A stretch of DNA of 10,446 bases from Bradyrhizobium sp. (GTDB taxonomy: Bacteria > Pseudomonadota > Alphaproteobacteria > Rhizobiales > Xanthobacteraceae): NCBI GenBank assembly GCA_028290165.1, contig JAQGKJ010000489.1, positions 1-10,446 on the forward strand, written 5' to 3'. The first letter of the stretch is position 1. Every line of letters starts with the position of its first letter. The notes beneath the pieces are model-generated. The model worked only from the letters and a program-made list of their open reading frames with translations, did not search any database and was not told where the DNA came from. This document shows positions 2,086 through 5,593 of this stretch, piece after piece. Made by a program: the position numbers and the translations under genes.

Positions 2086-2544
2086 TCAGCGACCGGTCGA
2101 ACCGAAACCGCCGCTGCCGCGATCGGTTGCCGAAAGCGAGGCCGCGGGAACGAGTTCCGCGCGGACCACCGCTCCAATCACCATCTGTGCGATTCGCTCG
2201 CCGCGCCGGACCGTGAACGGCGCCTCGCCGTGGTTGATCAAGAGCACGCCGATTTCGCCGCGATAGTCGGCATCAACGGTGCCGGGCGAATTCAGCACGG
2301 TGACGCCGTGTTTCGCGGCAAGCCCCGAGCGCGGACGGACCTGCGCTTCATAGCCCGGAGGCAGCGCGATCGTCAGCCCTGTGGGAATGAGCGCGTACTT
2401 TCCGGGAGCAAGGATCATCGGCCCGTCTTCGGGAACCGCCGCCAGCAGATCGAGGCCCGCGGCGTGGGCGCTCTGATAGGCCGGCAGCGCCAGGCCCTCG
2501 CCATGCGGCAGTTGCGTTATCTCGACCTTGACGGTGGCGCTCAC
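2086..2544 (-). CDS. dut: Deoxyuridine 5'-triphosphate nucleotidohydrolase (dUTPase)
   Basis: Homotrimeric cytosolic dUTPase hydrolyses dUTP to dUMP and pyrophosphate, which keeps uracil out of DNA and supplies dUMP for thymidylate synthesis. The 152-aa protein has the usual length and all five family motifs: AGLDLLA (29-35), RPRSGLA (70-76), the block [14 protein letters not shown] (86-99) with catalytic Asp91, RGERIAQM (114-121), and the C-terminal [11 protein letters not shown] (142-152) that closes over the nucleotide. The start is GTG at 2544 and overlaps the coaBC stop as GTGA, so translation is probably coupled to coaBC. The pairing of dut directly after coaBC (dfp) is also seen in other bacteria, including E. 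coli. Nothing is missing or broken. Confidence 0.96.
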
Positions 2545-3962
2545 GAGACATTCCCTACGCTCTTTGCAATCCGCGCCACCAATTGGCCTGCGACTTGCTG
2601 CTTGGTCATTGCCGGCCAGGAGTCGACGCCGATGTTGGCGCCGTCGCGGGTCAAAAGATGCACCGTGTTGCGATCGCCGCCCATGATGCCCGTGGCCGGC
2701 GAGACGTCGTTGGCTACGATCCAGTCGCAGCCCTTGCGCGCCAGCTTTGCCTTGGCGTTGTCGATCAGATTTTCCGTCTCGGCGGCAAAGCCGATCACCA
2801 GCGGCGGCCGCCTGTCCGATAATTTCGAGATCGTGGCGAGGATGTCCGGATTTTCGACGAGCTGCAGCGGCGGCATGCCGGCGGCGGTCTTTTTCAGTTT
2901 CTGCTCGCCTTCATTGGCGACGCGCCAGTCGGCGACGGCGGCGGCAAAGATCGCGATATCCACCGGCAGGGCGGCTTCGACGCGGTGGAGCATCTCGCGC
3001 GCGGATTCCACATGCTTCACGGCGACGCCTGTGGGATCGGCGAGGTCGACCGGGCCTGAGATCAGCGTGACGTCGGCGCCGGCGGCTTGAGCCGCCGCGG
3101 CAATCGCAAATCCCTGTTTGCCGGAGGAGCGGTTGGCGATGTAGCGCACGGGATCGATCGGCTCATGCGTCGGACCGGCGGTAATCAGAACGCGCTTTCC
3201 CGCAAGCGGGCGCGCTTGCGGCGGGCGCAGAAAGCGCTCGGCCGCGGCAGCTATTTCGAGAGGTTCCGCCATCCGGCCGACCCCGGCCTCGCCGGCTTCG
3301 GCCATTTCGCCGGCATTGGGTCCGACCATGGCGACGCCATCGCGTTCGAGCTGGGCGGCGTTGCGGCGGGTCGCGGCATTGTTCCACATCAAGGGGTTCA
3401 TCGCCGGCGCCAGCAGGATCGGCCGGTTGGCGGCGAGCAGAATGGCGCTGGCGAGATCGTTGGCATGACCCTGCGCCATCTTCGCCATCAGATCCGCGGT
3501 CGCGGGCGCCACCACGATCAGATCGCAGTCGCGCGCCAGACGGATATGCCCGGCGTCGAACTCGCTCTCGGCGTCGAACAGATCGGTGTAGGCGCGCTCA
3601 TGCGACAGCGCGCTTGCCGCCAGCGGCGTGACGAATTGCTGCGCGGCCTTGGTCAGCACGCAGCGGACGTGAATATGCCGCTCCTTGAGCCGCCGGATCA
3701 GGTCCAGCGCCTTGTAGGCGGCGATGCCGCCTCCGATCATCAAGGTGACGCGCGGGAGGTTGCCGGCAGCCTCGCGATGGATGGATGGAGAATTCAGAGG
3801 GGCTTGCGAAGCGGCATGAGGGGCGAAGGAAGGGCTATGCTGCGAGGCCTCGCGCAGGATCACCCGCACCTCGTCTTCGACCGAGCGGCCGTTGCGGGCA
3901 GCGCGCAGCCGCAGCTCGTCCCGGATGGCGTCGTCCAGTTTTCGGATCGTCAGGCTGGCCAT
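2541..3962 (-). CDS. coaBC: CoaBC (phosphopantothenoylcysteine synthetase/decarboxylase) with fused N-terminal ribbon-helix-helix domain
   Basis: This bifunctional flavoenzyme of coenzyme A synthesis ligates cysteine to 4'-phosphopantothenate (CoaB) and decarboxylates the product to 4'-phosphopantetheine (CoaC). The protein has 473 aa, against roughly 400 in E. coli; the extra length is N-terminal. Residues 1-39 resemble FitA/VapB ribbon-helix-helix antitoxins, and 40-69 are a Ser/Pro/Ala-rich linker. CoaC starts near 70 with GGGIAAYK (77-84), the active-site His139 in AGHIRLA, and PAMNPLMW (186-193), which fits PXMNXXMW. CoaB starts near 255, with [20 protein letters not shown] (260-279, Asn277) and KLKK (355-358). 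The substrate flap, residues 218-233, has Ala223 where E. coli Dfp has Cys158. ATG 3962 is preceded by GGAAG about 7 nt upstream. No Met occurs between residues 1 and 75, and Met75 would cut the first strand of CoaC. A 56-nt gap follows ubiB; the stop overlaps dut. Confidence 0.95.
3846..3962 (-). other. N-terminal FitA/VapB-like ribbon-helix-helix domain of the CoaBC fusion
   Basis: Residues 1-39 begin [20 protein letters not shown] and continue [19 protein letters not shown]. This fits the RHH antitoxin plan: a short beta strand (ASLTIRKL), helix A ([16 protein letters not shown]), a Ser-capped turn (RSVEDE) and helix B ([11 protein letters not shown]). Known: FitA-type antitoxins dimerise through the strand to bind operator DNA and use their C-terminal tail to block a PIN-domain toxin. 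Here the tail is replaced by a linker into CoaC, and no PIN gene is adjacent. Whether the domain still dimerises and binds DNA cannot be told from the sequence. Confidence 0.75.
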
Positions 3963-4018
3963 GGGAGTCTTCCACGTGGATTGATAGCAATGCTAGCAAA
4001 TTAGTGCGTACATTGCAA
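3963..4018 (-). promoter_or_regulatory. ubiB-coaBC gap: possible promoter and operator
   Basis: On the minus strand TTGCAA (4018-4013) is followed after exactly 17 nt by TAGCAT (3995-3990); each matches 4 of 6 bases of the sigma-70 consensus. The -10 is overlapped by the palindrome TGCTAGCA (3991-3998), which is part of the near-perfect direct repeat TTGCTAGCA/TTGCTATCA (3999-3982 on minus). A perfect 10-bp palindrome, TCCACGTGGA (3971-3980), lies next to the ribosome binding site, and ATTGCAAT (4012-4019) is a further palindrome. Binding by the RHH domain of the downstream protein is inference. Confidence 0.35.
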
Positions 4019-5593
4019 TCACAACTGACGAACCGCAAACAGGATCGCGATGAAGGTCGCGGCGATGATCCAGAGCGCCAAGGTGCGCCAGCGGCTCTTG
4101 CGGCCTTCGGTCCGGCCCATCGCCGCAATGGTCTCCGGCGACAGCCTAACGCCTTCCCGGGTCATGGTCTCCAACTGCTCCAGTACCGCCACCGAGCGCC
4201 CTGCGATCGCCGGCAGACCCCCCAGCACGCGCCCCAGTTCGCCCGCGCCGGACATCGCCCCCTGGATGCGTCCGACCGGGCCGAGATTGCGCTCGATCCA
4301 TTCGCGAACCACGGGATCGGCGATCTTCCAGATATCGAGCTTTGGGTCGAAGCTGCGCGCGACGCCTTCGACCACCACCATGGTCTTCTGCAGCAGGATC
4401 AGTTCGGGGCGGGTGCGCATGTCGAACAGGCCGGTGACCTCGAGCAAGAGCGTCAGCAGCTTCGCCATCGAAATTTCTTCGGCGGTGCGGTTATGGATCG
4501 GCTCGCCGATGGCGCGTATGGCTTGCGCAAAATTCTCCACCGAGTGATGACCGGGCACGTAGCCGGCCTCGAAATGCACTTCGGCGACGCGGCGATAGTC
4601 GCGGGTGATGAAGCCCAGGAGAATTTCGGCGAGGAACCGCCGCTCCTTGGCGCCGAGCCGGCCCATGATGCCGAAATCCACCGCGACAAGCCGGCCGGTA
4701 TCGTCGAGGAACAGATTGCCCGGGTGCATATCGGCATGAAAGAAGCCGTCGCGCAGCGCGTGGCGCAGGAAACTCTGGATCACCTTGCGCCCGAGCTCGG
4801 GCAGATCGACCTGCGATTCCTCGAGCCGCGCATGGTCGCTGAGCGCGATGCCGTCGATCCATTCCATCGTCAAAACATTGTGCGTGGTGCGGTCCCAGTC
4901 GACGGCGGGGACGCGAAAGTCCGGATCGTCGCTTGTGTTCTCCGCCATCTCGGACAATGCGGCCGCCTCCAGCCGCAGGTCCATCTCCATCGCTACCGAG
5001 CGCGACATCGTATTGATGACTTCGATCAGCCGCAGCCGCCGCGCTTCCGCCGAATAGGTTTCCGCCTTGTGCGCGACAAAGAAGAAATCGCCGAGGTCGC
5101 GGCGGAAACGCGAAGCCACGTGGGGCCGCAGCACCTTGACCGCAACCGACTTTCGCACGCCGTCCCGCTCGGTCTCACCGCGATGCACCTGCGCGATCGA
5201 GGCGGCGGCGACCGCTGGCCCGAAACTCGCAAACGCCTGTGCCACCGGGCGTTCCAGCGACTGCGCGATGACGGCTTCGGCCTCGCTTTGCGAAAACGGC
5301 GGCAGCCGGTCCTGCAGGCTTTCCAGGTCGCGCGCCATGGCGACGCCGACCACGTCGGGCCGGGTGGCGAGAAATTGCCCGAGCTTGAGATAGGCGGGGC
5401 CCAGCCGGGTCAGCGCGCGCGACAGTCGCGGGCCGGATTTGGCGCCGGGGCGCTCGATGATCCGCGCCAGCTGCAGCGCCAATTGTCCGGGCGGCGGGAC
5501 CAGGCTCGGGTCGACCACGCCGAATACGCCCTCGCGCGCAAACACGAAACCGGCGCGGGCCAGCCGCGCGATGTGGGTAATGGCAGAAATCAC
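4019..5593 (-). CDS. ubiB: UbiB, atypical kinase/ATPase of ubiquinone biosynthesis
   Basis: UbiB belongs to the ADCK/ABC1 (COQ8) atypical kinase-like family. It supports ubiquinone synthesis, probably as an ATPase acting on lipid intermediates or the Ubi protein complex at the membrane, not as a protein kinase. The 524-aa protein shows the family marks in order: KLGQ (70-73, the KxGQ motif), the Ala-rich loop AAASIAQVH (129-137) that replaces the glycine-rich loop, VAVKVLRP with Lys153, the EMDLRLEA segment (203-210), the catalytic-loop equivalent [10 protein letters not shown] (285-294) and DFG (306-308). One hydrophobic segment at the extreme C-terminus (about 504-521) is a likely membrane anchor; E. 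coli UbiB is usually drawn with two. The GTG start at 5593 overlaps the ubiE stop as GTGA, so the two are probably translationally coupled. Confidence 0.95.

Follow-up and report, generated by a model that had tools for sequence, protein, structure and literature searches.

A FitA-type ribbon-helix-helix domain on the coenzyme A enzyme CoaBC of Bradyrhizobium: probable capture from a toxin-antitoxin module and predicted autorepression

PutA has been described as a flavoenzyme with an N-terminal ribbon-helix-helix (RHH) domain that represses its own gene (PMC5293562). Of the antitoxin systems with such domains, FitAB is reported to bind a 36-bp stretch within its own promoter (PMC5086665, PMC3920265), and according to a paper on AmrZ a valine in the FitA strand makes contact with a thymine (PMC3325190). 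On the enzyme side, mycobacterial CoaBC is described as a dodecamer, its CoaC trimers occupying the vertices of a tetrahedron, and as being regulated by CoA thioesters (PMC7794376).

The gene considered here, coaBC of Bradyrhizobium sp., lies in a stretch of 10,446 nucleotides (contig JAQGKJ010000489.1), which was analysed as a whole and is hereafter called the window. Its product carries an RHH domain in front of the CoaC fold, at which E. coli Dfp starts directly. The accessible literature covered by our searches held no paper on a CoaBC joined to an RHH domain or to an antitoxin. We propose, at a probability of roughly 0.8, that the N-terminus of this CoaBC is a FitA-type antitoxin head captured, together with the operator of its module, from a fitAB pair at the ubiB/coaBC junction, and that autorepression is its most likely role.

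The fused gene and its distribution

The features of the locus are summarized in Table 1. The window protein matched the CoaBC model TIGR00521 over residues 71-465 with 390 bits (cut-off 219.7), and its match to the CoaBC structure 6tgv (E 4e-73) began at chain residue 7, corresponding to window residue 71. Together with the PF02441 and PF04127 matches, the TIGR00521 match bore out the sequence-only reading that a complete CoaC-CoaB enzyme follows the RHH segment in one frame; judged by these families, the protein is a complete CoaBC and a predicted bifunctional enzyme. The neighbouring genes were assigned by NCBI models to ubiE, ubiB and dut, and the PRODH and P5CDH families were absent among the Pfam and NCBI-model matches of the window.

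Table 1. Features at the coaBC locus of the window
Feature	Positions	Strand	Remarks
ubiB, upstream neighbour	4019..5593	minus	TIGR01982, 519 bits
Box 1, TGATTGCA	4014..4021	minus	position -59; its TGA is the ubiB stop codon (4019-4021)
Putative -35 hexamer, TTGCAA	4013..4018	minus	inside and next to box 1; permissive pattern
Box 2, TGTACGCA, degenerate	4005..4012	minus	position -50; 9 bp from box 1
Box 3, TGCTAGCA	3991..3998	minus	position -36
Putative -10 hexamer, TAGCAT	3990..3995	minus	overlaps box 3; 17 bp from -35; permissive pattern
Box 4, TGCTATCA	3982..3989	minus	position -27; 9 bp from box 3
coaBC with N-terminal RHH	2541..3962	minus	single uninterrupted frame, 473 aa, ATG start
FitA-like ribbon-helix-helix domain	3846..3959	minus	residues 2-39; PF22513 match
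Ser/Pro/Ala linker, variable	3753..3845	minus	residues 40-70; low pLDDT, high pN/pS
CoaC flavoprotein domain	3252..3752	minus	residues 71-237; PF02441, 101 bits
CoaB (DFP) domain	2652..3206	minus	residues 253-437; PF04127, 239 bits
dut, downstream neighbour	2086..2544	minus	4-base overlap with coaBC; NF001862, 198 bits

The RHH domain that had been recognized at residues 1-39 from the letters of the sequence was confirmed by profile search: residues 2-39 matched FitA-like_RHH (PF22513) at 58.5 bits over profile positions 1-38 of 39, against a curated cut-off of 27 bits, and residues 1-45 alone scored 63.5 bits. A profile built from 27 fused N-termini matched FitA (2h1o) at an E value of 1.1e-8 over positions 2-44, and a single-sequence query reached FitA in the Protein Data Bank at only 0.075-0.1. 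Arg7, which in FitA we take to be a DNA-contacting residue, was invariant across the 51 fused loci, those with a tblastn match starting at residue 1. In an AlphaFold2 monomer model based on 28 sequences (mean pLDDT 80.8, pTM 0.55), the RHH helices were placed at residues 11-24 and 28-41 (block means 82-87), linker residues 43-67 fell below a pLDDT of 50, and residues 1-4, also below 50, showed no strand, the dimer-pairing RHH strand not being formed in this monomer. Across 300 pairs drawn from 25 genes, one from the window and 24 from loci of Nitrobacteraceae and kin, pN/pS amounted to 0.30 for the RHH (residues 2-39), 0.81 for the linker (residues 40-69), 0.21 for CoaC and 0.26 for CoaB. By these ratios the RHH is under purifying selection near the level of the enzyme, and the linker is not.

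The locus set consisted of the best 80 of 590 relatives retrieved in a scan of GTDB contigs, among which 51 were fused and 28 unfused, while L040 starts inside the RHH, leaving 79 usable loci. The fused loci include Bradyrhizobium, Rhodopseudomonas, Nitrobacter, Afipia, Phyllobacterium, Mesorhizobium, Zhengella and one Brucella species, and the unfused ones Microvirga, Methylobacterium, Ensifer, Roseibium, Hyphomicrobium and Mesorhizobium denitrificans. In a sample of the order comprising 297 genomes, 291 gave a CoaBC match, at least 15 of which begin at query residue 1 or 2. These two surveys answered how far the architecture extends across Hyphomicrobiales, a point raised by the sequence-only reading: the fusion is widespread there. 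A protein search with residues 1-60 retrieved 2387 proteins at E <= 0.01, all 120 of the matches listed combining PF22513 with PF02441, and the fusion architecture is thus visible in databases. Because 51 of the 79 usable loci share the N-terminus and the search returned these 2387 proteins, the RHH N-terminus is not a product of chance. A spread beyond the order was considered and rejected, since among 289 genomes sampled from the class, 175 of them with a CoaBC match at 1e-100, G001 was the sole fused genome among the matches listed. In L024 (from 2001), which belongs to a metagenome bin, the RHH frame runs for 53 codons and stops, the core being encoded in a different frame through a frameshift or an assembly error.

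Internal start codons were scanned in 50 fused genes, two of the 52 having no recognised core. ATG, GTG and TTG were all absent between codon 39 and the core in 16 of the 50, an internal start accompanied by a Shine-Dalgarno-like stretch occurred in three, and a conserved position was not seen. The sole candidate in the window is a TTG at codon 74, within the first CoaC strand; apart from this codon, the earlier statement that there is no internal start stood for the most part. An internal start as the normal start of the enzyme was rejected, as none was conserved across the 50 fused genes.

Toxin-antitoxin modules at the ubiB/coaBC junction

No toxin gene adjoining coaBC was found in the window, where the neighbours are ubiB and dut, and to that extent the absence of a neighbouring PIN toxin was read correctly. 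Its relatives differ. When positions were compared in 297 genomes, a free RHH was located 560-591 bp upstream of coaBC on the same strand in seven unfused genomes, and in ten of ten unfused genomes, namely these seven from the order sample and three more from the genus of G064, the genes run in the order ubiB, antitoxin (fitA), PIN toxin and coaBC, the toxin being recognized by motif. PIN scored above the Pfam cut-off in all five toxin genes tested (L181, L185, L184, L239 and L241), and in all six junctions read the toxin stop overlaps a possible coaBC start, which is GTG in five and ATG in one. The antitoxin tail motif P-L/H-G-G was present in nine of nine compared antitoxins adjoining coaBC (L184 left out) and in none of the 51 fused loci, which carry a variable linker in its place. 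The sequence-only reading had held that the fusion does not look like a toxin-antitoxin remnant; this view had to be given up, since the very place where ubiB meets coaBC is occupied by a fitA-PIN pair in relatives, and several fusions resemble that arrangement minus the toxin. Judged from these junctions, the fusion is probably a toxin-antitoxin remnant by origin, conserved and probably in use.

Tandem RHH genes precede coaBC in L184, L228, L231, L235, L237, L240 and L243: the first encodes a small RHH protein, 69 aa long in L184, and the second the antitoxin, accompanied by its toxin; in L243 it is the second RHH that is fused to CoaBC.

A closer view of these states came from the Mesorhizobium-type genus to which G099 belongs; one of its members is a named Mesorhizobium (G021, the same genome as L063). 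CoaBC was found in 80 of its 81 genomes, with the alignment starting at residue 1-2 in 58, which were classed as fused by alignment and not by individual reading, and at residue 61-70 in 22. Of the latter, 18 had an RHH 560-592 bp upstream, G644 had an RHH in the same frame and three had none, so that a FitA-like RHH precedes CoaBC in 77 of 80 genomes (58 fused, 18 with separate antitoxin genes and one independent fusion). In each of the 18, antitoxin and coaBC are separated by a PIN-like gene, identified by motif in 12 and in L183 and L184, and by reading in L230, L232, L239 and L241.

In a comparison of RHH segments, whose pattern returned no RHH for seven of the loci submitted, those of L196, L220, L243 and L119 clustered with antitoxins, apart from the common fusion, the identity to the nearest antitoxin being 76, 76, 95 and 84 percent, respectively. 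L196, L220 and L243 retain the antitoxin tail before CoaC, and L119 retains the first part of the tail that L232 and L241 have on their separate antitoxins. When L119 was compared with its relative L184, the upstream region and RHH aligned to the antitoxin front at 75 percent and the coaBC start at 89 percent, and the toxin region of L184 had no counterpart in the compared stretch of L119. These four loci look like young fusions. The tail kept in them, in L119 only partly, could also speak for an RHH that serves mainly enzyme assembly or a protein partner, for example an unlinked PIN toxin, instead of DNA, the more so as RHH domains dimerise and antitoxins bind toxins. We consider such a role very unlikely, because the tail motif is absent from the 51 fused loci and because the boxes found at fused coaBC genes (see below) would be left unexplained.

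The distribution of the captured antitoxin head was followed on CoaBC trees. The genus tree contained 54 rows (29 old fusions, four young fusions, 18 antitoxin-linked and three with none), with one outgroup and duplicates removed. The states were interleaved on it, with 20 changes against a shuffled mean of 21.4 and a value as low in 61 of 200 shuffles; on this weakly resolved tree, strongly supported branches force at least four changes for the old fusion. The interleaving is compatible with a front that is exchanged rapidly or that arose more than once. On the wider tree of 114 rows, drawn without L040, L050 and L186, with L024 represented by its CoaBC core only and with L012 and L104 standing for one genome, the fused rows need six changes, at least four by supported branches, and a single origin in the form of one fused clade was rejected (p-AU 6.5e-5). 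We infer an order from module to young fusion to old fusion, and antitoxin-linked and fused states could also swap by recombination. It seems somewhat probable to us that the coaBC front in Hyphomicrobiales is an antitoxin capture site, where repeated independent toxin loss would have fused the antitoxin to the enzyme and led to metabolic self-control that senses the state of the enzyme.

Operator boxes and putative promoter upstream of coaBC

The 150 bp before the start codon were scanned in the fused set (51 loci and the window) and in the 28 unfused loci, with L040 omitted, for a strict 8-bp box, TG[AC][AT][AT][GT]CA, and for pairs of two TG-N4-CA boxes exactly 9 bp apart. As the loci are related, the resulting counts, like those of promoters given below, are not independent events: at least one strict box occurred in 50 of 52 fused versus two of 28 unfused loci, at least two in 44 of 52 versus none of 28, and 9-bp pairs in 44 of 52 versus none of 28, the window having two pairs (Table 1). 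Shuffled fused-locus sequences held a mean of 0.03 boxes per locus, the shuffles preserving base but not dinucleotide content here and in the promoter and free-fitA counts. The 9-bp pair is missing in eight of the 52 fused loci, and L025 and L027 are without any strict box.

A permissive promoter pattern, TTGNNN-N16-18-TANNNT, was found in 42 of 52 fused loci (3.6 after shuffling) versus two of 28 unfused ones (1.0 after shuffling), and both hexamers touch boxes in 20 of the 52 fused loci, including the window. A stricter scan of window positions 3850-4150 found no consensus sigma-70 promoter. The permissive pattern is seldom found ahead of unfused coaBC, and coaBC may therefore have acquired a promoter of its own (window 3963-4018) when the module was captured.

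An extra TGCAATCA box is located at -7 to -9, over the ribosome-binding region, in L036, L039, L043, L045, L061, L063, L065, L069 and L071; a box this close to the start codon could add control on early transcription or translation.

The same boxes were found at antitoxin genes. Among 22 free fitA-like loci of the order, a count that left out nine loci without a start, eight weak and three fused ones, 19 had one or more strict boxes in the 100 bp upstream, six had a 9-bp pair and 19 were followed by a PIN-like motif; for the nine antitoxins next to coaBC in the same count, the strict box was present in five and the pair in four. In the Mesorhizobium-type genus, counted with L194 and L222 (fused by alignment) read as unfused, L243 as antitoxin-linked, and L204 and L224 belonging to one genome, antitoxin-linked rows had the strict box in 14 of 18 and the 9-bp pair before the antitoxin in 17 of 18, rows read as fused had them in 27 of 27 and 24 of 27, respectively, and those read as neither had no strict box and no pair in any of the five. 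L181 carries the same box type before its antitoxin, arranged as TGATTGCA-T-TGCAATCA. The operator of FitA presumably contains TGCTATCA/TGATAGCA; its sequence was not found in the accessible parts of the literature searched. By this distribution, the boxes belong to the antitoxin family. With 9-bp pairs standing before fused and antitoxin-linked coaBC and before none of the 28 unfused genes, the suggestion of the sequence-only reading that the protein might control transcription of its own gene gained strong indirect support, and such regulation is probably exerted.

Given that the toxin-antitoxin origin is well supported, one would at first expect the RHH to be a passive remnant without DNA binding, and the boxes to be what is left of the promoter of the lost module. 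This we nevertheless judge unlikely, because the RHH and the boxes are retained jointly in two distinct regions of the CoaBC tree, and because the near-enzyme selection on the RHH, the invariant Arg7 (51/51) and the occurrence of one or more strict boxes in 50 of the 52 fused loci are at odds with it. A head still binding DNA at these boxes remains our preferred reading.

Genome-wide searches bore on which genes such a head would serve. The strict 17-bp palindrome TGATWGCANTGCWATCA occurred once per genome, always at coaBC, in three of four fused genomes searched (8.4, 7.5 and 4.0 Mb), and was not found in the fourth. A relaxed site was present at coaBC in 17 of 22 fused genomes, being absent there in five, versus none of eight unfused ones; away from coaBC, the 30 genomes contained nine sites, of which one belonged to an unfused genome. 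The reversed relaxed pattern gave no site in any of the 30. Seven of these nine were inspected: three fall within open frames 326-472 residues long, another falls within shorter frames, and one overlaps the start of a 130-residue frame. A wide regulon was rejected on these grounds, four of the seven being inside open frames.

The other two inspected sites are a box pair, TGCTTGCATTGATTGCA, in L094 and L098 (position 1501), apparently intergenic and preceding one and the same gene in both of these Bradyrhizobium genomes. That gene encodes a secreted protein, presumably a lytic transglycosylase, and is a possible second target.

The recurrence of this pair in Bradyrhizobium could be taken to mean that the RHH binds DNA but mainly regulates genes other than coaBC, such as a CoA regulon. 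We give this little credence, given that the strict site is confined to coaBC in three of four genomes and that the relaxed sites elsewhere are few, four of the seven inspected being within open frames. Of the 15 fused genomes listed in the order sample, 13 had no PF22513 match other than the coaBC RHH among the candidates scored; some genomes have other FitA-like proteins, which could use the sites. Control of coaBC itself is the role carried forward below.

Predicted autorepression and comparison with known systems

In the mechanism we propose, an ancestral fitAB module would have lain between ubiB and coaBC, its toxin then being lost and its RHH and operator kept by the enzyme. RHH segments from neighbouring CoaBC subunits would pair as dimers and occupy the boxes, one pair of which holds the putative -35 and the other the putative -10 in the window. 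The bound dimers would block RNA polymerase, so that CoaBC would hold its own level by autorepression, and perhaps that of the downstream dut too. More speculatively, CoA, CTP, FMN or intermediates of the enzyme might tune the binding to DNA. Because the DNA-binding head of an antitoxin and the DNA switch of that antitoxin are both present, the enzyme probably lowers the expression of its own gene.

If true, this would provide a concrete and testable route of toxin-antitoxin domestication, the stages of which coexist in one order as intact module, tail-keeping young fusion and RHH-only old fusion. It would also add a second RHH enzyme-repressor besides PutA, and a direct transcriptional control over how soil and symbiotic bacteria make coenzyme A.

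Compared with E. coli Dfp and mycobacterial CoaBC, the window protein has the same full CoaC and CoaB, and differs in 70 extra residues with an RHH before the CoaC fold. It resembles FitAB/VapBC modules in the antitoxin RHH family (2h1o) and in the type of upstream box; unlike them, the window has no toxin gene, the old fusions lack the antitoxin tail, and the partner of the RHH is an enzyme. The closest parallel is the trifunctional proline utilization A (PutA), with which it shares, as far as sequence tells, an N-terminal RHH on a (predicted) flavoenzyme and a (putative) operator in its own promoter, self-repression being a prediction here. CoaBC differs from PutA in enzyme and pathway. Its RHH belongs to the FitA antitoxin family, comes with an operator of the FitA type and has relatives that are recognizably toxin-antitoxin genes; a switch driven by substrate would be speculative for CoaBC. 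An enzyme repressing its own gene through an RHH would thus be of a known kind, and what appears unusual in CoaBC is the visible toxin-antitoxin origin of the domain and its repeated capture.
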